Source: a virus. From it: a stretch of DNA of 44,846 nt. Shown piece after piece: positions 3,873 through 44,507 of this stretch. Positions within the stretch are counted from its first letter, which is position 1. Each line of letters starts with the position of its first letter. Both the position numbers and the translations under genes were made by a program. Location of the stretch: positions 1-44,846 of the IMG/VR virus record IMGVR_UViG_3300023257_000043. One strand, given 5' to 3'. The notes under the pieces were generated by a model. That model worked only from the letters and a program-made list of their open reading frames with translations, ran no database searches and was not told the DNA's origin.

Positions 3873-4898
3873 CTATTCCCTCCAAAACTTGAATATAGTT
3901 CTTCCATCAACAGTCTTAACAGGTAGTGCCTTGTGCTTGTTATATCCCCAATGAGTATATATCAAGTGAAGGAATTTTTTTGCCGTCAAACCTTTGAGGC
4001 TTTCGTGGTCGGACCAGACTTTATCTCCTGACACCGCCATATCAAAGAAGAGTACCTTTACTTTTTCTGACAAACCTTTAAGATCACTCCATGCTCTGTC
4101 TCCATTGTGTATAATTGAGTGATGGAATGTGGAAAGGAATATTCCTACATCAAAAACTGTTTCGGTTGTACTCATATACTCTTCGATCTTGCAATTATGG
4201 AAGGTGATCTTCTTACTGTCTCTATTGTACATTCGATTCAGATAGTCAGACACCTCGCACCGCATCTTGTTAGCCTCTACAGCATGGATACTCTTGTTAG
4301 CCATGTCAAACAGACCGAAACTCATGTATCCCTCACACGACCCAAGGTCAGCAATATTATCAACAGGATTTCCTATTTCCTTACGAATAAATTTCAACCG
4401 ATCACCGCTATCAACGCGGTAACAAATAAACTCCGAAACATCTGGATGTGGGATAGGAGTATACAATGATTTCATTTCAACCAATTTATCTTTGAAATCC
4501 TCCCACTGCTGCCCGCACTCAACTATATCAAGTCTTACCAGACCTTTATAATCCAGAAAATCAAGAATGTTAATTCTGTGGAAACCATCAATTACTTGTA
4601 TTCGTCCTTCATCAGTAATATTGACGGTAATACTACTCTTGTCTCTACTGAAACCATGTTTCTCAATGCTTGCCCATAGTTCCAGAGCGCCACGTAGCTT
4701 AGCCAAGTGTGGGTCTTTTCCTGCACTCGTGTACTTCTTAGCATACGATGATGTTTCTAGCTCTTCATCTGAAGTGTTGACATCATACTTTTTCATAGCC
4801 TCTATAATAGCTTCTTGTAACCATAGAACCGCTGAACGTGTAGGATACCATATCCAGTCATTCTTCAATAGTTCAAAAGGAATATCAATACATCTCAT
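3873..4898 (-). CDS. ParB-like domain fused to SAM-dependent methyltransferase
   Basis: AAGGAGG lies eight nt before the ATG at 4898, inside a longer frame starting at 4922, so I choose 4898 (341 residues). Residues about 60-130 include VIDGFHRI, the core of ParB/sulfiredoxin-like domains, which use this loop for nucleotide binding or hydrolysis. Residues about 175-300 form a class I methyltransferase: DLGSCEGYMSFG (184-195) is the SAM-binding motif I, HAVEAN the acidic motif II, and the FLSTFHHS region lies near the active site. Target unknown; in a sugar cassette a glycan or nucleotide-sugar methyltransferase is plausible. Overlaps no other gene but is only 20 nt from the radical SAM gene. 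Confidence 0.8.
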   Translation of the reverse strand: MRCIDIPFELLKNDWIWYPTRSAVLWLQEAIIEAMKKYDVNTSDEELETSSYAKKYTSAGKDPHLAKLRGALELWASIEKHGFSRDKSSITVNITDEGRIQVIDGFHRINILDFLDYKGLVRLDIVECGQQWEDFKDKLVEMKSLYTPIPHPDVSEFICYRVDSGDRLKFIRKEIGNPVDNIADLGSCEGYMSFGLFDMANKSIHAVEANKMRCEVSDYLNRMYNRDSKKITFHNCKIEEYMSTTETVFDVGIFLSTFHHSIIHNGDRAWSDLKGLSEKVKVLFFDMAVSGDKVWSDHESLKGLTAKKFLHLIYTHWGYNKHKALPVKTVDGRTIFKFWRE

Positions 4899-4918
4899 TT
4901 TCTTCTCCTCCTTCATTT

Positions 4919-5803
4919 TCAATAATTACCAAAACAGTACAAACATTCATCTCTTGTTTTAATGTCATTTCTTATATCATTACAGAAATCACTATTCCAC
5001 ACTCCTTCTTGATAGATTATGGGACTTCCAGGAACCGGAGGCATAACTCTGGCACAACAAGAAACATATCCTCCAGGAGCTAATAACATATGCTGGAAAC
5101 ACAAACGGCAGTTACCGACTTCTTTCGGAGTGCCTACCGGTTTAGGCCAGCTTTTTACTTTTCCAGCTTTAGGATGAGACTTATATGTATTAATCTCAGC
5201 CAAGATTTCTGTATCAGCAGTTGTTATTATTTTGTCGTATTGTTCTTTTTTATGTGGGAGTAAATTATGGAAGTCAATACCGTCACACTTTAGTCCAAGC
5301 TCCAACGCTTCCGGTATTATCTGATAATTTCCGTGGTGGATAACAAAAGACACATATATTTTACTTTGTGTATTCGCTTTTAACCAACTTATTCCATCTA
5401 CAATTTCATCAAATTTTCCATCCACTCCATTGATCTCTGCGTGTCCTTTCTGGTCAACTGAGTTTAGACTGATCGAAATTGAGCGCACAGGATGGTTTTG
5501 GAATAATCTCTTTCTCTTCAATACCAAAGACCCGTTGGTTATGAGTCCTACATTTATATTACGCTCCTCTAAAAGGAACAACAGAGAGTCTAAGCCACGG
5601 TACAACAACGGCTCACCAAATCCTGCAATGCATACCGATTTAATGCTAGGATATTTATTCAACGCTGCTTCAACTGTTGGTATGTCAATGTCTTTTTTCA
5701 TATCCAAATCTCCGCTTGTGCGCCTACAGAACCAACATCGAAAATTGCACTTGTTCGTAGCGAAAACAGAAAGCTCAGTAGGATCGTTAATATCAATATG
5801 CAT
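4919..5803 (-). CDS. Radical SAM protein with SPASM-like C-terminal cysteines
   Basis: The start at ATG 5803 follows GGAGAG; an in-frame ATG at 5821 lacks a ribosome site. The 294-residue protein has CNFRCWFC near residue 20, the CxxxCxxC motif that holds the 4Fe-4S cluster cleaving SAM, then a GFGEPLLY segment equivalent to the GGEP motif. The C-terminus carries further cysteines (CRLCFQ, SCCARV, CLYCF), as in SPASM domains that bind auxiliary clusters. Such enzymes mature peptides or modify sugars and cofactors. Here it sits between a large glycosyltransferase and a methyltransferase, so glycan modification is the most natural guess. The substrate is unknown. Confidence 0.9.
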   Translation of the reverse strand: MHIDINDPTELSVFATNKCNFRCWFCRRTSGDLDMKKDIDIPTVEAALNKYPSIKSVCIAGFGEPLLYRGLDSLLFLLEERNINVGLITNGSLVLKRKRLFQNHPVRSISISLNSVDQKGHAEINGVDGKFDEIVDGISWLKANTQSKIYVSFVIHHGNYQIIPEALELGLKCDGIDFHNLLPHKKEQYDKIITTADTEILAEINTYKSHPKAGKVKSWPKPVGTPKEVGNCRLCFQHMLLAPGGYVSCCARVMPPVPGSPIIYQEGVWNSDFCNDIRNDIKTRDECLYCFGNY

Positions 5804-5808
5804 TTTAT

Positions 5809-8800
5809 TTACTCTCTCCATAGATTTTTGAGTCGTTGAAATTCTTCTCTGGCAAATGTTCTTGAATCTCGTTCACCAACAAAATTAGATTCGTCCGATG
5901 CTAGACCACTTATAACTCCAGACATAGCGAAGAAGTTTAACTCAGAAGGATCATCTTGATACGCAGACAGGAATTTGTTTAACAGAGCGTCTACCCAACC
6001 AGTCCCACGCAAGCCCCATCTTCTCTTTTCAGTCAGGCTCTTGTACCTCTGGAATATCAGGTAAGGAGTCCATTCTGGTGAGTGTACACCTAAAGCCTGT
6101 GTGTTATTCAGTTCTTTAAATTCACAGCTATGGCCTTCTTTAACAACTCTATCCAACTGCTCTCTTTCACATGAGAACATTTCTTCATCATATGCAAACT
6201 TAGCAAAAATTGAATGTTCATAGATTTTTAATCCACTTATCATCATATCCAAGTGCGGGTCCCATAGTGGGTATACAACAAAGGCGTGTTTCTTCAAGGC
6301 TTCCTCGTAGAGAGTTCTTACAGCATGAGGTTCTAATACCATATCTTCATCAACCTGGATATAATACTTTGTTTTGCACTTAGTAATCATTTGCTGAAAG
6401 GCTTTGTCCATCGGATATTGATCTTTAATAATCTCCAAGTTGAAATCGCAGTCTTGATTTTTCAAAGCCTCTATACAATTTTCATAGTTTGGATTTCCTA
6501 CAGTTATAACAAAAACCGTAAGACTTTTTGAGAGGTTTTCCTTTTTCACTTTTATTTCATTCAACCTGCTATCTCTAAGTTGATGCGCTTCCTGGAACTT
6601 CTCTACATCTCCAATAATGAAAGCTGCCCAAAGATTGGCTATGTACTTCCAGTCCCATCCCGCTTCAACTATCTTCCTATTCAAAGCACCGTTTTCTTTT
6701 AACTTTCCTTTTTCAATCATCTTCACTATACCATTAGCTACATCAACGGGGCTCCTATCAACAACAACGTTCTGGTTGAATAGATTGATTTCTTTTACAA
6801 CGCCTACATCGGTTGACACAAAAGGAATGCCGCAAGAACATGCTTCCATCAACGGAGTCGGTAATCCTTCCGCTGATGATACACAAATGTAAATGTCAAC
6901 GTCTGCATAGAAATCAGCCATCGCTTCATGTGGTACACGTTTTCCACCAAATCCTTTAGTTTTAAGTCTAAATTTATGGTTTGTTTTTTCGAGTATCTTG
7001 AGCGCAGGTAGTAGAATATTTTGGTATCCCTTAAACTCTTTCTTGGTATTTCCGCAGTAGCCTAAAACATATTCTTTATTCTTCTGCGGCTTTGTTTCCT
7101 TTGCTCTTGCTACAGGTTTAAATACCTTACAATCTGTTCCTGCTGGTAAATAAACAGTATCAAGACCTAACTTTTTCCACAAGGACTGAATTGTTCTGGA
7201 GATAGAGGCGTTTCCTTTTGCACTCTTAGCCGTTACCAGTTCCTGTTTAAGAAATGCGCGGAAATTCTCTGGAGGCATATAGATGTCTTTTATCGGACAA
7301 TGATGAACCAGAGTAACATATGATTGATCCCTTAGAACATTCGTTACTTTATCACTAACGGTGAGTAACAGTCCCATTGGAAAAAGTATATCATACGTAT
7401 CAGTGCTCACACTTGATAACTCACTATGGCTGCACATATCAAAATTAACATCAAGCGAACAATGCTTCTTCAGTCCTTTTGCTTGTGAATGAAACGCCCA
7501 ATTAGGCTCATCATATATGAGAAGGACTTTTGGATCTTTTCCTTTTACAGAGCTGTTTATATTCTTGTATTCTATTTGAAGTTGTTCATCTCTTACAAGC
7601 GGCTTTGTAGTCATAGCAGATAGTCTATCAGTCCTCTCATCCATCAACTGATAATAACTATCGTTGTCGCCCGTTAAGAAATACCCCCACACATCAGCGA
7701 TATATTTCCAGTCCCATCCCGCTTCAACTATCTTTCTATTTAACGCTCCGCGCTGTCTCATATCACCGGCTTCGATCATCTCTATTATTCCATTAGCCAG
7801 AGCGGTTGCTGTTCTATCTACTAAAATGTTCTGGTCCTGTAGATTAATCTCCTGCACAACACCTACATCAGTTGATACAAAAGGTATACCACAGGAACAC
7901 GCTTCCAGTAGAGGAGTCGGTAGTCCTTCCGCTGATGAACCGCAAAGGTAAATGTCAATATCACTATAAAACTTTGGCATTTTTTCATGTGGGATTAACT
8001 TGTCGGCGCTCTTTACCTTTAGTTTTACATTGTAACCAGCTTCATTGACTATCTCAATAGCTGGTTTAATGATGTCCTCAAATCCTTTTAGTTCCTTATC
8101 TGTATCTCCGCAGAATCCTAATACTACTTGAGACTTTTTTGTTTTAGCTTTCTCTACCGGTTTGAATAATTCGCAATCTATTCCGGCTGGTAGATACAAT
8201 GAATTAAGATTGAACTCTTTCTTCCATAGCTTTTGTATCATTCTGGATATGGAACCATGGTTGTGTGCTTTACTTGCATTGTTTACTTCGTGCTCAAGAT
8301 AACCAAGAATATTCTCTTTGTAATTCAATCCTGCTAATGACGGATAGTGATGAACCAGTGTTGAATACGATTTTGATTTCATTACACTAGCTAAGTCAGG
8401 AAACACAGTCATCAACAGACCCATAATAAACACTCTATCACACGAATCTATCTGTGCGTGATTTATCTTCCGGCAAGACCCCATCTCGATACTTACATCA
8501 AGATTACAATACTTAGCAAATCCTTTAGCCTGAGAATGGAATGCCCAGTTCTCTTGATCGTATAACAACATTAATTTCTTTATCTCGCGCGGGACTTGCT
8601 GGTACTGCTTACCCCAAAACTTTCCGTAGACCTTCAAAAACTCAAGCCTGTTACGTTCCAACACCTCTTGTGAATTAAACCATACCAATCTTGCGTCTCC
8701 AAGAGTTGTGTGTCCTAAATGCTTTATCCCAGCAACATAACAACAGCCTATCATAAGGTTCTGGACTTTAGCGCGGAAACACAAATCGGAATCCTCGTAA

Positions 8801-9483
8801 TACGCAGGATAATATCGCTCGTCAAATCCTTTTAACTTTTCAAATATTTCCTTCTTCATCAACATTCCGCCGCCGCCAACATAATCATGTACACCAAGTT
8901 CGGCCTTTGCCTCATGTTGTCTCTTTGCATGTCCGGCTGCGTCCATAGACCAACGCTCAACACCGATCAAGTCATAGCCAGTGTCAAGCTCTGTTATCAT
9001 TAATTCAATTGTCTTATTATTTACTATCTGGTCATCGTCCAAGAATAACAGAACGTCACCCGTTGCACTCTTTACACCCATGTTACGGCCTTTAGCTACA
9101 CCAATATTCCTGCCACAAACTACCATTTCTATTGTGGGATACTTTGCTTGGATCTTGTTCATCGTAGCTTCTGGAGTTCCATTACACACCACAACGATCT
9201 CATGTGATATATCTTTGAGTGCTTTTTGGAGAGCGTCTATACACGTACTAAAAACAGCGAAGTTATCTACAGTTAGGACAATCACGCTCAATTCATGTAA
9301 AGAAAGGAAAGGAAGTGGATCAGCAAGAATAGGATCATCAACTCTAACAAAACCATGTGGCAAAGACTTTGCACCGAATCGAAGAACTGATTCATCTATC
9401 TTACCATCTTCTTCAACAACAATGGTTTTACCGTTTTCATCTGAGAATAACTGCCGAGTACCTGTCTTATTCCACCAAAGCAC
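5809..9483 (-). CDS. Giant multi-domain glycosyltransferase: GT2, two tandem GT4, GT2-like
   Basis: A 1224-residue protein from a GTG start with AAAGGAG six nt upstream. Order: a GT2-like domain (about 65-300, LFLDDDQ metal-binding motif and EDSDLCFRA); a first GT-B/GT4-like unit (about 305-610, with PAGIDCELFKP and SSAEGLPTPLLEACSCG); a second, closely similar GT4-like unit (about 650-970); and a C-terminal GT2-like domain (about 985-1224, QVDEDMVLEP). The two GT4 units match over nearly their whole length, both starting with a WAFHSQAKG segment and ending in KIVEAGWDWKYIA. Such proteins transfer several sugars in sequence onto one acceptor. It starts inside the GT9-like gene and overlaps it by 17 nt; acceptor and sugars are unknown. 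Confidence 0.93.
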   Translation of the reverse strand: MLWWNKTGTRQLFSDENGKTIVVEEDGKIDESVLRFGAKSLPHGFVRVDDPILADPLPFLSLHELSVIVLTVDNFAVFSTCIDALQKALKDISHEIVVVCNGTPEATMNKIQAKYPTIEMVVCGRNIGVAKGRNMGVKSATGDVLLFLDDDQIVNNKTIELMITELDTGYDLIGVERWSMDAAGHAKRQHEAKAELGVHDYVGGGGMLMKKEIFEKLKGFDERYYPAYYEDSDLCFRAKVQNLMIGCCYVAGIKHLGHTTLGDARLVWFNSQEVLERNRLEFLKVYGKFWGKQYQQVPREIKKLMLLYDQENWAFHSQAKGFAKYCNLDVSIEMGSCRKINHAQIDSCDRVFIMGLLMTVFPDLASVMKSKSYSTLVHHYPSLAGLNYKENILGYLEHEVNNASKAHNHGSISRMIQKLWKKEFNLNSLYLPAGIDCELFKPVEKAKTKKSQVVLGFCGDTDKELKGFEDIIKPAIEIVNEAGYNVKLKVKSADKLIPHEKMPKFYSDIDIYLCGSSAEGLPTPLLEACSCGIPFVSTDVGVVQEINLQDQNILVDRTATALANGIIEMIEAGDMRQRGALNRKIVEAGWDWKYIADVWGYFLTGDNDSYYQLMDERTDRLSAMTTKPLVRDEQLQIEYKNINSSVKGKDPKVLLIYDEPNWAFHSQAKGLKKHCSLDVNFDMCSHSELSSVSTDTYDILFPMGLLLTVSDKVTNVLRDQSYVTLVHHCPIKDIYMPPENFRAFLKQELVTAKSAKGNASISRTIQSLWKKLGLDTVYLPAGTDCKVFKPVARAKETKPQKNKEYVLGYCGNTKKEFKGYQNILLPALKILEKTNHKFRLKTKGFGGKRVPHEAMADFYADVDIYICVSSAEGLPTPLMEACSCGIPFVSTDVGVVKEINLFNQNVVVDRSPVDVANGIVKMIEKGKLKENGALNRKIVEAGWDWKYIANLWAAFIIGDVEKFQEAHQLRDSRLNEIKVKKENLSKSLTVFVITVGNPNYENCIEALKNQDCDFNLEIIKDQYPMDKAFQQMITKCKTKYYIQVDEDMVLEPHAVRTLYEEALKKHAFVVYPLWDPHLDMMISGLKIYEHSIFAKFAYDEEMFSCEREQLDRVVKEGHSCEFKELNNTQALGVHSPEWTPYLIFQRYKSLTEKRRWGLRGTGWVDALLNKFLSAYQDDPSELNFFAMSGVISGLASDESNFVGERDSRTFAREEFQRLKNLWRE
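6600..8590 (-). repeat. Internal tandem duplication of the GT4 unit
   Basis: Two copies of about 1.06 kb lie head to tail inside the giant glycosyltransferase gene, offset by roughly 1059 nt. Short stretches are still identical in DNA, for example the sequence ttccagtcccatcccgcttc near 6647 and 7706. The remaining differences are scattered, so the duplication is not brand new but is much younger than the family split. Confidence 0.85.
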
Positions 9484-31481: not shown

Positions 31482-31924
31482 TCTGTGCGTTTACCATCCT
31501 TTGAGTACTCTAGCGCATTATCTATCTGCTCCTGCCGAGGCCACATCCACCTAAAACAGTACCCCGGATGTTGATAACGAGCCTCTATTCTAGCCATATC
31601 CTCGTCAATACTTTTAATGATTATTGCTTCTCTTTCTGCTGAAAGATTTATTGTACCATCTTCATCCGGTTTACCTGCGCTATTTATCAAGTAGAAAACA
31701 GACGCTTGTGACGGCATGACAATCTCTTTCCCGCCACCAAGAAATTGATATTTTTCTTTTTCAAGGAAATCAAGAAGAGTTCGCATAGCAACATAATAAT
31801 CCGCTCCTTCAACAGAGGCCAAAACTACATCATCATCCATCAATGATGCAATTACAAGTGCGCGTTTATCGGGATCAAAAGTGTCTGCCGTAACCTTTTC
31901 ATACTCTGCAACTAACTTAATCAT
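31478..31924 (-). CDS. Hypothetical protein between RecA and the nuclease pair
   Basis: A 148-residue soluble, acidic protein that overlaps the nuclease gene by four nt and touches the recA stop, so it is coupled to recombination genes on both sides. It has a MDDDVVLASVEGADYYVAMRTLLDFLEKEKYQF stretch and a Trp-rich C-terminal part (GYCFRWMWPRQEQIDNAL). No known domain is recognised. Conserved coupling might point to an accessory factor in recombination, but that is inference only. Confidence 0.55.
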   Translation of the reverse strand: MIKLVAEYEKVTADTFDPDKRALVIASLMDDDVVLASVEGADYYVAMRTLLDFLEKEKYQFLGGGKEIVMPSQASVFYLINSAGKPDEDGTINLSAEREAIIIKSIDEDMARIEARYQHPGYCFRWMWPRQEQIDNALEYSKDGKRTE

Positions 31925-32955
31925 TACTTTATCTCCTTTAAATAGTACTTCCAGCTATCAGGCAATAACTTATCAGCGTTATCAGCTAACACAGTCTTGA
32001 GATTAGTAGACTGAAACTTATCTTCCTCACCGGGAATTGAATACCAACTACCATTTTGCTCCAGCAGTCCTTGTTGCACCATAACGGGCAATCCACATTT
32101 ATACCGCATTATACCTCTATCAAAAAGAGTAATGAAATTAGCTTTCACATACGGAGGAGAGAACTTATTCTTCGTAGTGGTCATAGCTCCTTCCAAACCG
32201 ATAACTGGAGCACCTTCTTTTTTTCGTACTCTCTTACCCATGCGTAACCAAAGGCGTAAGGTGGAATGAAACTTAATCGCTCTACCGCCCACTGTAACAA
32301 TGTCATCACCATACATAACTCCGACATTATCACGTGTCTGGTTTACGAGCACAAGGCAAACACGAGACTTAGATAATGCTCCTGTTACCTTCCGTATGTG
32401 ACCCATGGCTCTTGCTCTTGCTGCCATCTCAGCGCCGAACTTTACATTACCTTTCTTATCAACCTCCAGCTTTGCTACCGACCCAGCAACTGAATCCCAC
32501 ACAATAACTCCAGGTTTTTTATCCTTTTTTCGCGCCGCCAAGAATATTTCTATTTCTTCCCAACACTCTTCAATCAAGATTCCTGGTGCGACATATACAA
32601 ACCGCTCTTTATCAATTCCAAGAACTCCTATGAAATGTGCCGGGTGGGAGCCTTCAATATCAAGGTACATCCCATATCCTCCCATGCGCTGTACCTCTCT
32701 AATAGCGTGGATACCTAGTAGAGTCTTGCCTGTGGAAAAATCACCATAAACCTCAACCACTCTACCGAACGGAAATCCACCACCACAGGCAATGTCAATA
32801 GATAGCACTCCGGTAGAAACTAATTCTTTAATATCTGATGTGTAAACCTTTTCATCTGAAAGGAGAACGGCTCTCTTACTTCCGCCTAATATCTTAGATG
32901 GAGGTTTCGGTTCTATTACACTTTCCTTCTTGCTGACTGCTTTTCGTTTTACCAA
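31924..32955 (-). CDS. recA: RecA/UvsX recombinase
   Basis: A 343-residue recombinase. After an N-terminal basic segment it has Walker A GDFSTGKT (71-78), Walker B IVWDS (151-155), the segment EMAARARAMGHIRKVTGALSKS, and the L2-region LVNQTRDN, all in the order seen in bacterial RecA. The domain following L2 (TVGGRAIKFHSTLRL) also matches RecA more than T4 UvsX or archaeal RadA. It forms filaments on single-stranded DNA for strand exchange, together with SSB and the resection nuclease nearby. The tRNA gene lies just upstream. Confidence 0.93.
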   Translation of the reverse strand: MVKRKAVSKKESVIEPKPPSKILGGSKRAVLLSDEKVYTSDIKELVSTGVLSIDIACGGGFPFGRVVEVYGDFSTGKTLLGIHAIREVQRMGGYGMYLDIEGSHPAHFIGVLGIDKERFVYVAPGILIEECWEEIEIFLAARKKDKKPGVIVWDSVAGSVAKLEVDKKGNVKFGAEMAARARAMGHIRKVTGALSKSRVCLVLVNQTRDNVGVMYGDDIVTVGGRAIKFHSTLRLWLRMGKRVRKKEGAPVIGLEGAMTTTKNKFSPPYVKANFITLFDRGIMRYKCGLPVMVQQGLLEQNGSWYSIPGEEDKFQSTNLKTVLADNADKLLPDSWKYYLKEIK

Positions 32956-32986: not shown

Positions 32987-33074
32987 TGGACCGGATGGGG
33001 GTCGAACCCACGTCCTCCCTGTTTTCCGTCTATTTCGGAACACATCAGGCGCTCTCCCTTTGAGCTACCGGTCC
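32987..33074 (-). tRNA. tRNA gene with an extended anticodon region
   Basis: An 88-nt tRNA-like gene. The acceptor stem GGACCGG/CCGGTCC pairs perfectly over 7 bp; the D arm (GCTC/GAGC), the T arm (GTGGG/CCCAT with loop TTCGACC) and A73 are all normal; no CCA is encoded. The anticodon part does not fold: only CCTG/CAGG pair, with 24 nt between them, and the only 5-bp stem (TTCCG/CGGAA) has a loop AAATAGA with no U33. Removing 17 nt (for example GTGTTCCGAAATAGACG) leaves loop ATGAAAA with anticodon GAA (Phe), variable loop AGGAC and a normal 71-nt shape. Other cuts would give His or Tyr. Class II variable arm is not a better fit. Identity is uncertain. Confidence 0.75.
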
Positions 33075-33083
33075 GTTTAAAAC

Positions 33084-34187
33084 TTACTTCTTGCGCTTCA
33101 CGCCACGCTTAACCTTTTTCTTGGGTGGCGGATCATCTTCTTCCTCGTCCAGTCCTGCTTGAACATCATCCGCGAGATCATCGAAATCGAAATCCAAATC
33201 ATCACTATCAAAATCTATGTCATCGCTGGAGTCAGCGTCATCAGCCTCGTCCGTCTCGAAAGGAGCCTCCTCATCATCTTTGCCTAAGTCAAATTCATCT
33301 TCATCCTCGACAGGTTCTTCTTTCTTAGGCTTAGGCTTTTTAGCCTTTGGCTTCTTTGCCTTCGGTTTTGGCTTGGGCTTCTCTTCAACCTCGTCCTCTT
33401 CACCATCTATGTTGATATCGTCATCATCAACGTCAACGAACAAATCGTCCTCGTCAATAACTACCTCTTTCTTTGCCTTCGGCTTCCTTTCAGACTTAGC
33501 TGTATCATAGGACTCATCAACATCGTCATCCTCGTACAAGATTCCTTTTATCTCTTCGGTGGTAAGGAACTCTGCCTCTTCATCAAGGTTATTAAGTTTC
33601 TTGAGCAAGGACTTCCACGCTTTGGTATTCTTAATAGAAGACGGCTTACCACCAGCGCGGATATCGTAGTTAGGCCATTCACGCTTGGACTTGGGATCTT
33701 TGACCATCGTTTTTGTGATAGTCAAAACTCGTCCGGTGAGCTGGTCAGTAATGTCACCAAAATCAGGATCGTTGATGATACCGAGAATGGGATTAAGAGT
33801 CTTGATACCAAACTCAAACTTCTGCACCCCAGCTTTAGTATCGTCAACATCTATGACATTACACAGATAGCGGGACTTAGCGCCGATGCGACTAGCGAAC
33901 TCTCTATCCTGTGAATCTCCACTCTTGTAACGCTTCTTGACATAGGAGCATACAGGACACTTTTTACCGTCCATCTTCGGACAATAAATCTTTTCTTCAT
34001 CCTCACCTACTCCGTAATGTACTCTGATTTCCGTAAAGAATCTACGCATGTCTTGATGCGGAGGCATAATTCGTATCCGCGTTTTATCACTCAGGCTGAT
34101 GTAACCTGGGCGACCGGCGGATTCTCCAGCCAGCTTCTTTTCTACCTTTGCATGATACTGTTTCAAATCATCTAAATCTAGTCCCAT
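33084..34187 (-). CDS. Single-stranded DNA-binding protein, T4 gp32-like
   Basis: A 367-residue protein. The core (about 1-200) has H-x11-C-x7-C-x2-C at HYG...YCPKMDGKKCPVC, close to the gp32 zinc site H-x12-C-x9-C-x2-C, and a conserved EIRVHYG segment within the OB fold. From about residue 215 on it is low-complexity: an acidic stretch, a Lys/Pro repeat (KPKAKKPKAKKPKPKK), then a long Asp/Glu/Ser run. Acidic tails in gp32 recruit replication proteins. Here the last 15 residues are basic (KKKVKRGVKRKK), which is unusual. Placed between polymerase and RecA, as expected. Confidence 0.82.
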   Translation of the reverse strand: MGLDLDDLKQYHAKVEKKLAGESAGRPGYISLSDKTRIRIMPPHQDMRRFFTEIRVHYGVGEDEEKIYCPKMDGKKCPVCSYVKKRYKSGDSQDREFASRIGAKSRYLCNVIDVDDTKAGVQKFEFGIKTLNPILGIINDPDFGDITDQLTGRVLTITKTMVKDPKSKREWPNYDIRAGGKPSSIKNTKAWKSLLKKLNNLDEEAEFLTTEEIKGILYEDDDVDESYDTAKSERKPKAKKEVVIDEDDLFVDVDDDDINIDGEEDEVEEKPKPKPKAKKPKAKKPKPKKEEPVEDEDEFDLGKDDEEAPFETDEADDADSSDDIDFDSDDLDFDFDDLADDVQAGLDEEEDDPPPKKKVKRGVKRKK

Positions 34188-34794: not shown

Positions 34795-37311
34795 TTACCC
34801 GCTTACATTCAAATCCTTTAAGGCTCCCCAACGCTTACCGACAGCCACATCAGCCACCAGCGGGATCCCTCTCATAAACGGTAGATCAACACTTTCCATC
34901 TTCCGCTTAATTACAATAATTACCTCCTTTGCTCTTGATCGTAGAACCTCAAAATACAGAGCGTCATGGTTTTCATTGACCGGAATTACAATGTTCTTCC
35001 AACCCAACCAATCCCTCTGCCTAAACTCTCTCATTATGGCTATAAATGCAAGCTTCAATATATCTGCTGCTGTACTCTGGATTCCGGTATTCTTACATTG
35101 CCTGATAGCGTGACCGAAATGTTTCTCTGCTATCCTCCTATTCATTCCTTTCAAATCCTTCAGTTGCCTTCTCCTACCAAACGGATTTGTTGTGTATCCA
35201 TTCTTCAACGCCTCGGCAATAACAGTTTTCCAATAAACTTCTTCGATGCTTGGATAGGTATCAAGGAACTTCTGTAGTTGCTCCTCAGCCTGTTGTAACG
35301 TTGTTTCTCCATCAAGATTAAATCCTTTTCGATCATCAACCAAGCCGTGAGCTGTTCTACCATACAAGACACCGAAATTGAATCCTTTAGCCTTTACTCG
35401 CTGCTCTTTTGTTAATTCATCAACAGACACACCAAATATTCCACAGCCTGTATTACTATGAATATCTCCTCCTCCCATAAAACATTTAATCATATTTTCA
35501 TCACCTGACAGTGCTGCCATAACACGAAGCTCTACCTGAGAATAATCAGGACTAACTAGAATGTAACCGGGACGAGCGACGTACAAGTTTCTGAGGAAAG
35601 AACCGCGCTCGATGTTTTGAAGATTTGGATCTCTTGTAGCAGTCCTTCCAGTGTCAACAAACCTATACCGTGGGTGAATGCGATTCTCTGTTGTTATCCT
35701 TCTACGCTCAACTATCGGAGTGACATAGGTATTCAACCGCTTTGTCTGCTTTCGGTACTTCAATAGAACCTCAGCGAACTTTGAATTGTAATCATCTACC
35801 AGCACCGTAAGGACTTTCTCATCAACCTGAGCCTTACCTGACTCTGTAGTTATAATCACCGGTAGACCCATTAATCCAAATAGTATCTGCGCCATCTGGT
35901 CATTTGACGAGAACTTAAAAGACGCTCCTTTCCTCATCATGTACTGAAAAACTTCAGGAAACTCAAACATCTGCTTCTCAAACTTCTTTATTTTCTTCAG
36001 TATGTGCCGTTCTACCTTCTTTGCATAAACCGGATCAGCAGCCAATCCGTAATACATAAGGTCAGCATATCCTTCTGCAACAGATGGTGATACGATTTCT
36101 GAATAGAGATGCCACATCTTTTCTTTCTTCAACTGCTTCTCTACCACTCCAGCTATTCTAAATGTCATATCGCAGTCGGTGCAGTTGTAATTCGACATTG
36201 CCATGAGCGGAATGTTACACATCAAAAGACCTGAGTACTTTTTCCAGAATCTATCTTTGTATCCGCCGTACTCTGAAAAATACTCCCACACCATTGATTC
36301 CAAACCGTTATTTCCTGTTTCATCTAGGAGTCGATGCATTTCCATCGTGTCCAGAACTTTACCTTGTATCTCAATATCAAACTGTCTTCTTAGTTCAACC
36401 ATATCAAACAATACGTTCTGTGCAATGAATGTTTTGGTTTCATCCTCAAACAAATCCTTCAAGTGTGTGATAATAGCTTGTTTGTGTTCAAGAGTTATTT
36501 CACTATGATGGACTGGAATACAACACGCTTCTCCAGGTGCCCAGCTAAACCCAATGCACACAATAGTACTATCTGTCTTGCTCATCGTCTCTATATCGAA
36601 ACTGAGCCTGTCATACTTCGATAGCTGTAGGATATGTGAAATAGCTGAACTATCATCACGAGAGCACTTGTATCCTTCATGTAACTTACTCTGAGGCTGT
36701 TCGATCTCCTCACCTTTTAATACAGACACAACCTTCTTCAAATCGGCACGGAAAAGTTTAAGCTGCTCCTCGTGCTCTTCTCTATAACCTTTTCTTAAAA
36801 TGAACGCTGGATGGACGGTTGGAACTACCGGAATGTTACTCAGGCCAGCAACCTTGTTACTATACCTCAAGACATTGCCTCTAAACCTTTGAATCCCCTT
36901 CAAACCCATTAGGCTACTCAACGCAACACCACCAAGAGGTACAATGACCTTCAATGTATCTTTGTACTTCACCAATTCAGCTATAAGTTTAGGATTACAA
37001 GCAATGATTTCCTTACTCGTTGGTTGTCTATTTTTATCATTAGGTGTAGTTGGCCGACAGCGAACAGCGTTGGTTATAATGTATCCTTTAGTTATTCCTA
37101 CTTTATACAGAGCCTTTCTGAGGAGCTTGCCACTTTTTCCTACAAATATTTCTCCTTCCTCATCCTCGTGTTTACCGGGAGCTTCTCCAATGAATATAAT
37201 CTCTACAGGACCACCACTTGAATACGGAGGTATACACGGATGATTGATGCCGGATGCACTTAATTCACACTTAGTGCATCCGGCCATCTTGTTACCAAAC
37301 AAATCCTGCAT
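34795..37311 (-). CDS. DNA polymerase family A with N-terminal uracil-DNA glycosylase domain
   Basis: An 838-residue fusion. Residues 1-200 are a family-4 uracil-DNA glycosylase: four cysteines (C12, C15, C85, C105) placed for a 4Fe-4S cluster, GEAPGKHEDEEG (42-53) and VHPAF (166-170). Next comes a 3-prime to 5-prime exonuclease (LSFDIETM, later NYNCTDCDM), then polymerase motifs A (VSPDYSQVELRV), B (RVKAKGFNFGVLYGRT) and C (NENHDALYFEV). Motif C has His-Asp-Ala where family A usually has His-Asp-Glu. Such fusions occur in SPO1-type phages. The enzyme is the main replicase, working with the clamp genes just upstream. ATG shares one base with the previous stop. Confidence 0.95.
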   Translation of the reverse strand: MQDLFGNKMAGCTKCELSASGINHPCIPPYSSGGPVEIIFIGEAPGKHEDEEGEIFVGKSGKLLRKALYKVGITKGYIITNAVRCRPTTPNDKNRQPTSKEIIACNPKLIAELVKYKDTLKVIVPLGGVALSSLMGLKGIQRFRGNVLRYSNKVAGLSNIPVVPTVHPAFILRKGYREEHEEQLKLFRADLKKVVSVLKGEEIEQPQSKLHEGYKCSRDDSSAISHILQLSKYDRLSFDIETMSKTDSTIVCIGFSWAPGEACCIPVHHSEITLEHKQAIITHLKDLFEDETKTFIAQNVLFDMVELRRQFDIEIQGKVLDTMEMHRLLDETGNNGLESMVWEYFSEYGGYKDRFWKKYSGLLMCNIPLMAMSNYNCTDCDMTFRIAGVVEKQLKKEKMWHLYSEIVSPSVAEGYADLMYYGLAADPVYAKKVERHILKKIKKFEKQMFEFPEVFQYMMRKGASFKFSSNDQMAQILFGLMGLPVIITTESGKAQVDEKVLTVLVDDYNSKFAEVLLKYRKQTKRLNTYVTPIVERRRITTENRIHPRYRFVDTGRTATRDPNLQNIERGSFLRNLYVARPGYILVSPDYSQVELRVMAALSGDENMIKCFMGGGDIHSNTGCGIFGVSVDELTKEQRVKAKGFNFGVLYGRTAHGLVDDRKGFNLDGETTLQQAEEQLQKFLDTYPSIEEVYWKTVIAEALKNGYTTNPFGRRRQLKDLKGMNRRIAEKHFGHAIRQCKNTGIQSTAADILKLAFIAIMREFRQRDWLGWKNIVIPVNENHDALYFEVLRSRAKEVIIVIKRKMESVDLPFMRGIPLVADVAVGKRWGALKDLNVSG

Positions 37312-39617: not shown

Positions 39618-40607
39618 TTAGAACAGCCTGTTAAGACTCTTAGCTTCTCCTATGTCACATACTCCTGGTTGCAGACGTTCCTCAAGCTCTTTGAAGAACA
39701 AAATATTTACCTCATATCTCAACGCTAACGCGGCACTCCTCTCTTCTTCATCTTCATATCTGCCTAGCTTCTCGATGGTATATCTCTCTCCATCATCGAA
39801 ATGCCTTTCTCCTAACTCATGGAAATACTTCTCAACAACCTTACGCACTCTAGGAGACCAATTACCTATGTACTCCTTTGTGTGCTTACTTGCTTCTGAT
39901 ACTGCTATGTGCGGTGTGTTTCCATAGTTCGTGTCCCAGAACTTATCTCTTATCAAGTCTTTCACCGGAACAAACACCAATCCATACGCCGCTCTCTTTT
40001 TCCACGTAGAGAAATCCACCGATCCCCATGGATGTTTCTTTAACATACCGAAACTACCCATTGCGAACCCGTGTACTTTTGTTTTCTCTTTCTCTGACAC
40101 GGCAAAGAATTTCTCATTTCCATAAAGAGGCTTTCCTTTAAAAGAGTAGCCCACGTACCTATTACACTTGCACATCTCTCTCCACCTATTGAAACCTCGC
40201 TGCTTATGCCACACAGGAACGATGTCTCTACCGACTTGTTCTCTTAACTTCTCTGTCATTTTGTCAACAGTAGCAAGTCCTATGTATTCCTCAACATCGA
40301 GTTCGATTATCCTGGAGAACATGTAATGATATTCTTTTAGATATTTAATATATAGATCAAAGAACTCATCTATCTCTGAAAGATTACCTCTGCTGGTGTA
40401 GAAGCTATGTGTACCACTATCAAGCATTATATTAGCACCGTGCTTATGTGCTTCGACCAATGCTCGATGTGTTTTACTATCGTTTCCATTCCTATACGCC
40501 TTGTACAGGTAATAGAACGACACCAGCATATTCTTATGCCCGCACCGCATCATAGCTTCAATGGAGTACGGACAGTCAGTAACAAGATAAATCTTTTCCA
40601 CGGACAA
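39618..40607 (-). CDS. dpdA: DpdA-like 7-deazaguanine transglycosylase (TGT superfamily)
   Basis: A 329-residue TIM-barrel protein of the tRNA-guanine transglycosylase superfamily, in the phage form that places 7-deazaguanines in DNA. Key stretches: NIMLDSGTHSF (59-69, with catalytic-base Asp63), RIIELDVEEYIG (99-110), and KVHGFAMGSFGML with GSVDFSTW (178-202), the last typical of phage DpdA. It would swap guanine in DNA for a modified base made by the FolE/QueE-type enzymes encoded about 3-5 kb upstream. Zinc-binding Cys of bacterial Tgt are absent, as expected. Preceded by the glycosyltransferase gene, two nt away. Confidence 0.82.
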   Translation of the reverse strand: MSVEKIYLVTDCPYSIEAMMRCGHKNMLVSFYYLYKAYRNGNDSKTHRALVEAHKHGANIMLDSGTHSFYTSRGNLSEIDEFFDLYIKYLKEYHYMFSRIIELDVEEYIGLATVDKMTEKLREQVGRDIVPVWHKQRGFNRWREMCKCNRYVGYSFKGKPLYGNEKFFAVSEKEKTKVHGFAMGSFGMLKKHPWGSVDFSTWKKRAAYGLVFVPVKDLIRDKFWDTNYGNTPHIAVSEASKHTKEYIGNWSPRVRKVVEKYFHELGERHFDDGERYTIEKLGRYEDEEERSAALALRYEVNILFFKELEERLQPGVCDIGEAKSLNRLF

Positions 40608-42559: not shown

Positions 42560-43390
42560 TCATACTATCAACGCTCCGTTCTCACCATCTTCCAAAACCT
42601 CAACTTTAATTTCTCTGCGAGGAAACCTTTGAATATACCATCTTCTTATCAATAATGCTATATCTTCACAGGAGGACGAAGGAGCCATTGTATGGAGCAG
42701 TCCTTCTAATTTAGTGGTAAGGTTACGCTTCTCCTCCAGGTACTCTATATCCCTGTCAATCCCATTGCTCTGTTCGATTCTTACAGTGACATGGAACACG
42801 TGTCTGTGGAGATCCTTTAGATAATAGAATCTACCACGAGCTTCAGGATATTGGTGACAGCCTTCCGCAGAGGTTTTAATTGTGGCAAAGGTTTTATAAT
42901 CATATTTCGTTATTCCTTCAAACAGATAGTACTTGGCATTATTATTCCACAGTGCACGTTGTGATGGGTAAATACTGTCCAACGCGCATTTCTTAATACC
43001 TGCGGCATCTTCTGTCAACACCTTCATGTCAGTCCTGTTCATTTCTACCGAGTAGTACCTAATATCCTCAACAGGCGCACCACGAAGGATACTATAAACA
43101 TACTGATGCAACGGATGATAGTCAGTAGGTGCCGGAATTAAAAGAGTGCTTGCTGGATAAATAACCTGTGCTAATGCCATAGCAACTTGTGCTGGTGTAC
43201 CTCTATCCTCGTAAATAAACACAGGAGTAAATCCGTACTTTTCAGCACACTTGTACGCCTCTGAACCGCGCATTCCTTTGTGGTCAAAAAAGTAAATAAC
43301 CTTATCGACCTTTCTGGAATCGAGCAATGTAAAACAACCAATGAGTTCATCATCTGGATGTGGTGCAGCGATAACTATTTCTTTTCGCAT
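42560..43390 (-). CDS. PIG-L deacetylase domain fused to QueD/PTPS-like domain
   Basis: A 276-residue fusion. Residues 1-165 are a PIG-L (LmbE) zinc hydrolase: APHPDDE (9-15) and PTDYHPLHQ (88-96) carry the zinc ligands; the family removes acyl groups from amines. Residues about 166-276 look like 6-pyruvoyl-tetrahydropterin/QueD synthase: His179, the HRH pair (195-197) followed by VFHVTVRI, SSCEDIALLI, and VEVLEDGENGALI. The active Cys expected four residues before HRH is Leu here, so it may not do the classic QueD reaction. It lies next to folE, overlapping by 16 nt, so a role in the deazaguanine pathway is likely. The fusion is by my reading, not a search. Confidence 0.72.
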   Translation of the reverse strand: MRKEIVIAAPHPDDELIGCFTLLDSRKVDKVIYFFDHKGMRGSEAYKCAEKYGFTPVFIYEDRGTPAQVAMALAQVIYPASTLLIPAPTDYHPLHQYVYSILRGAPVEDIRYYSVEMNRTDMKVLTEDAAGIKKCALDSIYPSQRALWNNNAKYYLFEGITKYDYKTFATIKTSAEGCHQYPEARGRFYYLKDLHRHVFHVTVRIEQSNGIDRDIEYLEEKRNLTTKLEGLLHTMAPSSSCEDIALLIRRWYIQRFPRREIKVEVLEDGENGALIV

Positions 43391-43959
43391 AATTTCAAAA
43401 ACTCCGATTTCACTTCAGGCTGTTCAAAAGATCCTCTGACAGCAGATGTCACCATTTCCGAATGAGCATTCTTTACTCCACGCATCGACATGCACATATG
43501 ACGAGCTGTTACTTTTACCATCACTCCATGTGGTTTGATTATCCTGTAGAAATTATCAGCGATTTGAGAGGTCATATTCTCCTGAATCTGTAATCTCCTT
43601 GCAAAGACCTCCACCAACCTAACTAACTTTGAGATTCCCACTACAATCCCATTCGGTATGTAGCCTATGTCAACTGTACCAGTGAATGGTAAGGCGTGAT
43701 GCTCACAAATCGAAGCAAAGGCTATTTCTCTAACCACAACCATTTCATTACAGTCGCTCTTGAATGTAGCTGATAAAACTTCCTCTGGTTCTTGGTTATA
43801 TCCGGCCAATAGTTCATGCATCATCTTGGTTACTCTCTTTGGTGTGTCAACCAATCCTTCTCTATTTGGATCTTCACCAATATGAATTAAAAGCTCTCGT
43901 ACCATGTCCTCAATTATTTTATCCCTATTAGCTTGTGGGTCTGTAATGAAAGCTGCCAC
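43375..43959 (-). CDS. folE: GTP cyclohydrolase I (FolE)
   Basis: A 194-residue enzyme that opens GTP to dihydroneopterin triphosphate, the first step of 7-deazaguanine (and folate) synthesis. The zinc ligands match FolE: Cys85 and His88 in CEHH, and Cys156 in RHMCMSM. Other signatures are GEDPNREGLVDTPKRV (28-43), IGYIPNGIVVGISKLVRLVE and TSQIADNFY. GTG start with AAAGGAG upstream. It overlaps queE by 46 nt and the PIG-L fusion by 16, so all three are made together. No folate genes are nearby, so the 7-deazaguanine role is preferred. Confidence 0.95.
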   Translation of the reverse strand: MAAFITDPQANRDKIIEDMVRELLIHIGEDPNREGLVDTPKRVTKMMHELLAGYNQEPEEVLSATFKSDCNEMVVVREIAFASICEHHALPFTGTVDIGYIPNGIVVGISKLVRLVEVFARRLQIQENMTSQIADNFYRIIKPHGVMVKVTARHMCMSMRGVKNAHSEMVTSAVRGSFEQPEVKSEFLKLCEKK

Positions 43960-44507
43960 TGTGGACGCTCCTTTACTATGTCAACTACTTCCTGTACGTT
44001 ATCCATTCCATCACACGGCTGTAAATACAGGAACGTTTCACCTTCAATACGTTCATAAGGCTCAAGTGACTGTCCTGTATAAACTACCTTTAGTTCATCA
44101 CCAACAAAAAAATCTTTGCCTATTTTTGGACTGACTGTAATCCACATGTTTTCCTCGTCACGTAAATCAAATACATTATGAGTAAAGAAATCATTCGGAA
44201 TACCGTTAGTCTCAACCTGTATATCAAATCCACCATATTCCAGTAGTCCGTCTATAAGTGCCTTTAATGCTTCTGGTTGTTCAGTAGGCTCTCCACCTGT
44301 TATGACCACGTGCTCAATGACAGTAGACAAAGAATTTATCCTATCAATAACCTGCTGGACAGTGAGACTATCCATCACTGAACAATCTGTGTCACACCAT
44401 GAACAGCCAAGCGAACATCCAGCAAACCGAACGAAAATAGAGGCAGTACCAACCCACATACCTTCGCCTTGAATTGACACGAATATCTCATTTATTAAAC
44501 AATTCAT
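43914..44507 (-). CDS. queE: 7-carboxy-7-deazaguanine synthase (QueE)
   Basis: A 197-residue radical SAM enzyme that contracts carboxytetrahydropterin to 7-carboxy-7-deazaguanine. It begins INEIFVSIQGEGMWVG and FVRFAGCSLGCSWCDT, with cluster Cys31, Cys35 and Cys38, then VVITGGEP (67-74). This combination is characteristic of QueE rather than other radical SAM proteins. AGGAGG lies seven nt before the ATG. Overlap with folE and the upstream dNTP-hydrolase-like gene makes a single operon. In this phage it probably supplies a DNA base, with DpdA nearby. Confidence 0.95.
   Translation of the reverse strand: MNCLINEIFVSIQGEGMWVGTASIFVRFAGCSLGCSWCDTDCSVMDSLTVQQVIDRINSLSTVIEHVVITGGEPTEQPEALKALIDGLLEYGGFDIQVETNGIPNDFFTHNVFDLRDEENMWITVSPKIGKDFFVGDELKVVYTGQSLEPYERIEGETFLYLQPCDGMDNVQEVVDIVKERPQWQLSLQTHKLIGIK

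Follow-up and report, generated by a model that had tools for sequence, protein, structure and literature searches.

The acceptor stem, the D-T elbow and the T arm of a tRNA form the body that is recognised by RNase P, by RNase Z or exonucleases, by the CCA-adding enzyme and by EF-Tu, and the anticodon loop is the part recognised by the ribosome and by anticodon nucleases. The reasons for which phages carry tRNA genes are debated, mainly in terms of codon supply, replacement of cleaved tRNAs and lysogeny. Among the described systems closest to the RNA reported here, the canonical class I tRNA (RF00005) shares with it an acceptor stem, a D arm, a T arm and the signature bases of the D and T loops; the intron-containing tRNAs of archaea and eukaryotes share extra anticodon-arm nucleotides that fold as a hairpin; and the tRNA-like domain of tmRNA shares an acceptor/T body with other RNA structure in the place of the anticodon arm. 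tRNA-Sec, allo-tRNA and tRNA-Pyl have anticodon stems longer than 5 bp, although the extension amounts to about one base pair and these are decoding tRNAs whose loop and anticodon are normal (PMC7609411). The pseudo-tRNA tRNA-Other of Bacillus cereus is likewise a tRNA-like RNA and is reported to be inactive in translation, but it carries a Trp anticodon and its gene is chromosomal and lies inside a larger transcript (PMC3399842). In the engineered tRNA scaffold, a man-made expression tool, the acceptor, D and T arms are retained and the anticodon stem-loop is made the insertion site for a hairpin (PMC3753655). Phages are unmentioned in a review of non-canonical tRNAs (PMC7609411), and the parts of a survey of virus tRNAs reached by the terms searched contain no phage RNA in which the anticodon hairpin is replaced by a longer structured arm (PMC6409571). 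Nor was a prior description of such phage RNAs found in the literature searched, which lay largely outside the subscription journals.

The window analysed here is the whole of a 44,846-base IMG/VR record of a tailed phage. Its only tRNA-like match is an 88-nt element on the minus strand (Table 1), whose bounds coincide exactly with those of the Rfam tRNA model match (E 7e-7, gathering score 29). Read 5' to 3', the element comprises GGACCGG, TA, the D arm, G, CCTG, ATGTG, the inner hairpin, AA, CAGG, GAGGAC, the T arm, CCGGTCC and a final A. As the initial annotation had held, the arms other than the anticodon arm are canonical, with 7/7 acceptor, 4/4 D-stem and 5/5 T-stem pairs (one of the latter G-U), and the body is that of an elongator tRNA, with a 7-bp acceptor stem, a D arm and a T arm bearing TTCRA. 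The roughly 17 extra nucleotides reported for the anticodon arm, and the 5-bp hairpin that they form, were also confirmed: the stretch between position 26 and the T stem measures 39 nt compared to 23 nt in a canonical class I tRNA, an excess of 16 nt, and the Rfam model leaves 29 nt of this arm unaligned.

Table 1. Coordinates of the tRNA-like element, its parts and its flanking genes in the window, with the loci of a separate UAU-anticodon tRNA family.
Feature	Coordinates	Strand	Remarks	Evidence
tRNA-like RNA	32987..33074	(-)	88 nt; no CCA encoded, CTA follows	Rfam RF00005, 46.3 bits
Acceptor stem, 5' strand GGACCGG	33068..33074	(-)	pairs with 32988-32994 (CCGGTCC), 7/7	sequence and fold
D arm GCTC-AAAGGGA-GAGC	33051..33065	(-)		Rfam, ARAGORN, fold
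Anticodon-stem base, 5' strand CCTG	33046..33049	(-)	pairs with 33018-33021 (CAGG)	
Internal loop, 5' side ATGTG	33041..33045	(-)	3' side AA at 33022-33023	read from sequence
Inner hairpin TTCCG-AAATAGA-CGGAA	33024..33040	(-)	occupies the place of the anticodon loop; insert of the initial annotation	
Variable loop GAGGAC	33012..33017	(-)	6 nt	sequence
T arm GTGGG-TTCGACC-CCCAT	32995..33011	(-)		Rfam, ARAGORN, fold
T4-type single-strand DNA binding protein gene (ssb), upstream	33084..34187	(-)	9 bp from RNA	phrog_224, E 2e-8
UvsX/RecA recombinase gene (uvsX), downstream	31924..32955	(-)	31 bp from RNA	phrog_97, E 1e-52; PF00154
UAU-anticodon family members	L024, L026, L027, L032, L058, L065, L072, L083, L091, L095, L096, L097; also L155, L160			

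The element lacks the 5-bp anticodon stem and 7-nt loop with U33 of a canonical tRNA, the best canonical pairing at that site being 2/5. As it stands, the arm consists of a 4-bp anticodon stem, a 5/2 internal loop and a 5-bp inner hairpin closed by a 7-nt terminal loop, and its minimum-energy fold pairs CCU with AGG on the outside and UGU with ACA across the internal loop. It folds better than its own dinucleotide shuffles (z = -2.7; z = -2.0 when the whole RNA is folded). Contrary to the earlier statement, the arm forms without removal of the 17 or so nt. The element belongs to a class defined in the present work as phage tRNA-like RNAs with an extended anticodon arm, in which an intact acceptor/D/T body and a stem at positions 27-31:39-43 are combined with a structured segment of 11-50 nt that replaces the loop. 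An identical 88-nt sequence is present in contig IMGVR_UViG_3300022868_000089 from another sample (the two contigs are 99.9% identical), which argues that the element is not an assembly accident. Scans by protein and by DNA pattern for close relatives returned only near-identical contigs, and blastn with the element returned just T-arm matches in annotated phages and plasmids. Other phage tRNAs that share its D arm are of normal length and of mixed isotypes.

The ssb gene, the tRNA-like RNA and uvsX are all co-directional, and the phage genes of the window include those for a T4-like capsid protein, UvsX, SbcCD, the T4-type single-strand binding protein and a clamp loader. A family A DNA polymerase is also encoded in the window (34795-37311, minus strand); it has a uracil-DNA-glycosylase domain at its N terminus as well as a 3'-5' exonuclease. 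Transglycosylase-like (phrog_887), GTP cyclohydrolase I and QueE-like genes are found at 39618-40607, 43375-43959 and 43914-44507, respectively, all on the minus strand, and from these genes a 7-deazaguanine modification of the phage DNA is probable. Glycosyltransferase stretches, one of family 2 and two of group 1, occur in a 1224-aa protein (5809-9483, minus strand) that has other sugar genes and radical-SAM genes nearby.

A small intron had been among the explanations first offered for the locus, and the arm can be read as that of a decoding tRNA from which an endonuclease would remove about 17 nt, the halves then being ligated to yield tRNA-Phe(GAA), tRNA-Tyr(GTA) or tRNA-His(GTG). ARAGORN calls no tRNA gene for the element at default settings; once introns are permitted, a single gene is called, its 'intron' being 17 nt long, and it is read as Phe(GAA), or as His(GTG) if the intron is made to lie at 37/38; moreover, the hairpin splits the loop in such a way that ATGTG and AA together would give a 7-nt loop with U33. 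The Phe-like loop of the initial annotation is recovered in this manner, but only as one of several imperfect options, given that a mismatch persists in the 5-bp anticodon stem after the 17-nt removal. Indeed, in an enumeration of every single excision that yields an arm of 17 nt in which U33 and no fewer than 4/5 stem pairs are present, GAA, GTA and GTG fitted equally, and 65% of shuffled loops gave at least one such U33 reading, so that the intron reading carries no weight. The histidine option is further ruled out by C at -1 (no G-1) and A73 (no C73). Neither folds nor inspection of the exon-intron junctions revealed a bulge-helix-bulge, no RNA ligase or tRNA endonuclease was found among the approximately 30 window proteins searched, and no RtcB homologue occurs in the window or the viral loci. 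Protein-spliced tRNA introns are not known from bacteria, and the phage carries bacterial-type replication genes along with its T4-like capsid gene. The element therefore differs from the archaeal and eukaryal intron-containing tRNAs in lacking a bulge-helix-bulge and a single exon reading and in residing in a bacterial-type phage, and a spliced, decoding tRNA is improbable here.

Other tRNA-related assignments were tried and rejected. A class II tRNA is inconsistent with the variable loop, the excess length lying inside the anticodon stem; a Ser(TGA) class II fold is returned by ARAGORN only at a threshold relaxed to 50% and with a weakened D stem, and a class II fold with a normal anticodon loop in the same 88 nt, the outcome named at the start as one that would overturn the first description, was looked for and not found. 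A group I intron would have a catalytic core and a length of at least about 200 nt, whereas the insert is 15-17 nt, and the window has no other Rfam match at the gathering score. The element does not match the tmRNA model (RF00023) and differs from tmRNA in having no mRNA domain with a tag, in retaining a D stem, and in its length of about 88 nt. Among other phages, an unannotated tmRNA is encoded by the Salinibacter phages SRUTV-1 (L007:257-632), where the match is full-length at 80 bits, and M31CR41-3 (L009), where it is cut by the end of the stretch. An RNA of 91 nt in Microbacterium phage Franklin22 (L008:340-430), situated between tRNA-Asn and tRNA-Gln and not annotated, aligns with the tmRNA model at its ends (41 bits, gathering score 47) and has no mRNA part; it has an acceptor stem, a T arm, CCA and one long hairpin, and no D stem.

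The extended-arm design recurs in many unrelated phages. Viral contigs were scanned for class I D arms whose T arm lies too far away (33-63 nt, the usual spacing being about 26 nt), a pattern that demanded neither acceptor nor T-stem pairing and that retrieved at least 120 stretches; even so, among the matches listed, 98 of the 121 sequences assessed (window included) had at least 6/7 acceptor and 4/5 T-stem pairs. Tandem-tRNA artefacts and a class II-like family with a UAU anticodon were set aside before the final set. The latter family, which has a long variable arm and the loop CAGAT(T)A, is coherent and is found mostly in large, tRNA-rich phages (Table 1). At least 84 elements, including that of the window, have intact arms around a 30-60-nt anticodon region. 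Among the matches listed, the acceptor stem is complete (7/7) in 70 of these 84 and the T stem (5/5) in 81, and a 5-bp/7-nt anticodon hairpin is present in only 6. A stem of at least 4 bp occupies the anticodon-stem site, where CCTG/CAGG of the window also sits, in 69% of elements versus 28% of shuffles among the matches listed. Arm folding across the same matches is modestly better than that of shuffles (mean z -0.8), which indicates that the set is probably a mixture, and a few members carry a canonical anticodon hairpin plus a second arm.

The initial annotation was correct that such an RNA is unusual for a phage. In a scan of open length, the D-to-T spacing was 25-28 nt in 136 of 139 cases, 29-30 nt in two and 34 nt in one, and by a rough estimate some 1-2% of the phage tRNAs that have this D arm are of the extended kind. 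An extended element is the only tRNA at 57 of 75 loci among the matches listed, compared to 29 of 101 for normal phage tRNAs, an approximate comparison as locus lengths differ; being mostly solitary, these elements do not appear to be worn-out members of tRNA clusters. Neither self-clustering nor PHROG tallies disclosed a recurring neighbour gene among the matches listed, and alanine identity (G3:U70) was rejected as a common denominator, being present in just 2 of the 84 elements among those matches. In cellular genomes the same pattern retrieved mainly archaeal tRNA introns and tandem-tRNA artefacts, and the overwhelmingly archaeal distribution of such gene layouts also speaks against an intron in the window phage. 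A few bacterial cases have intact arms, several of which adjoin phage-type genes (large serine integrase, phage primase, exonuclease). One tRNA-like RNA of Chryseobacterium balustinum (L192:4785-4842), whose anticodon region is 58 nt long, lies directly downstream of an RtcB-type RNA ligase gene (4893-6278). An association of the elements with RtcB was nonetheless discarded, with this one Chryseobacterium locus and zero viral loci in its favour.

Two groups of cultured phages allow the arm to be followed through its changes. One scan match (L055) comes from Streptomyces phage Vash, which is related to phiC31. Throughout this group the RNA is placed between genes 13 and 14 or the equivalent genes, and just one phage has it annotated, as tRNA-Gly. 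A small alignment of eight sequences (Vash, phiC31, Lilbooboo, Samora, Euratis, RemusLoopin, Sebastisaurus and Heather) contains 7 pairs changed on both sides, and its covariation of 0.281, a value reached by 0/500 shuffles, exceeds the 0.125 of shuffles and the 0.070 or less obtained when partners are slid. Compensatory changes (15 cells) fall in the acceptor, T, outer-arm and inner-arm stems; in the arm itself, C-G is exchanged with U-A and C-G with A-U and G-C in the outer stem, and C-G with G-C in the inner stem. The terminal loops are interchanged among GUAA, GAAA, GCAA and UUCG, in the manner of GNRA/UUCG swaps, while the internal loop AAYCCGGR//GCA is conserved. In phiBT1 the arm is short and its loop is 9 nt long, and the same slot in TG1 holds just an acceptor stem, a T arm and a UACG hairpin.

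A second scan match (L063) is Microbacterium phage Schubert, in which the RNA occupies a slot just upstream of DNA polymerase I. Extended-arm versions are found at this slot in Schubert, GaeCeo, ChickenKing and Cheeto1, and Finny has a short version. More than 100 unannotated EA-type records (including L260, L268, L269 and L270) carry at the same slot an acceptor stem and T arm with an H-type pseudoknot, a further likeness to tmRNA. In a small alignment of four sequences (Peep, McGalleon, Stormbreaker8 and MonChoix), 4/6 pairs of the second pseudoknot stem (S2) are changed on both sides with no broken cell. Schnapsidee, which is filed under the species of Stormbreaker8, has a hairpin in place of the pseudoknot. 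The second domain is thus freely exchanged on an acceptor/T body that stays in place. A survey of Microbacterium phages lists 0 tRNAs for EA1 phages and a single 'tRNA-Ala' in other subclusters (PMC7302621).

On comparative grounds, these compensatory changes show that the arm, or the pseudoknot that replaces it, is a selected RNA structure in the phiC31 and Microbacterium groups. From its architecture, the arm of the window element, whose sole known relative is near-identical, would likewise be structured and selected. The new insertion or degraded gene proposed initially is accordingly a poor fit to a design that recurs in dozens of unrelated phages with the other arms intact and whose extended arm is kept by compensatory changes in the phiC31 group. 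A decaying or recently insertion-hit tRNA gene devoid of function would agree with the simplicity of the hairpin insert and with an element that has no known diverged relative, and the window arm could be a recent insertion. The perfect pairing of all its other arms, the better-than-shuffled fold of the arm itself, and the maintenance of the design in two groups make functionless decay an unlikely account of the element.

The RNAs share a constant body of the type recognised in processing, they have lost the decoding part, and they occupy tight gaps in co-directional replication or early operons: replication genes flank the RNA of the window at 9 and 31 bp, that of the Microbacterium phages adjoins DNA polymerase I, and that of phiC31 is set between genes 13 and 14; together these features point to a non-decoding, excised module. 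That the window element does not decode is quite probable. With somewhat lesser confidence, it is favoured to be a phage tRNA-like RNA that has kept the parts recognised in tRNA processing, bears a longer, folded arm that does not decode where the anticodon loop would be, and is excised from the ssb-uvsX transcript. The RNA would be transcribed within the ssb-uvsX replication operon, and its 7-bp acceptor stem, D-T elbow and T arm would present the body that tRNA-processing enzymes recognise, such that host RNase P and tRNA 3'-end enzymes may cut it out of the transcript. Its excision would then punctuate the operon, separating and protecting the ssb and uvsX messages, though punctuation as the main role is rather doubtful; alternatively, a stable small RNA would be released whose arm does the work. 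In either case, the element would function most like the engineered tRNA scaffold, the difference being that it is natural and resides in phage genomes.

A further possibility is that of a decoy or inhibitor, which the initial annotation had also raised, wherein the RNA would bind a host factor that targets tRNAs and thereby protect translation during infection. Such a target might be a toxin that recognises the acceptor stem or elbow, or an anticodon nuclease titrated by a non-cleavable competitor. Phage tRNAs are known to counter tRNA-targeting defences (PMC10264068, PMC11555353), the tRNA-like domain of the bacterial YrlA RNA has been suggested to inhibit an anticodon nuclease by competition (PMC7790460), and rapid change of the arm on a constant body would fit an arms race. 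However, the canonical anticodon loop, which anticodon nucleases read and cut, has been lost, which disfavours them as the target, and a decoy is on the whole unlikely.

Taken beyond the single locus, the comparisons suggest a scattered and overlooked kind of phage tRNA-like RNA that is probably non-decoding. It is a tentative proposal, held at a little under even confidence, that the RNAs of the window phage, of phiC31 and of more than 100 Microbacterium phages belong to one undescribed class, in which a constant acceptor/T module for processing and stability would be joined to a fast-evolving hairpin or pseudoknot domain with a phage function, be it operon punctuation, regulation or counter-defence. 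Current annotation either misses such RNAs or assigns them arbitrary isotypes, with Gly, Pro, Thr or nothing given for the same gene slot. Solitary phage 'tRNAs' that, in the form drawn, are unable to decode would demonstrate that translation is not what every phage tRNA gene is for, and their occurrence in cultured, well-studied phages such as phiC31 makes the question directly testable.
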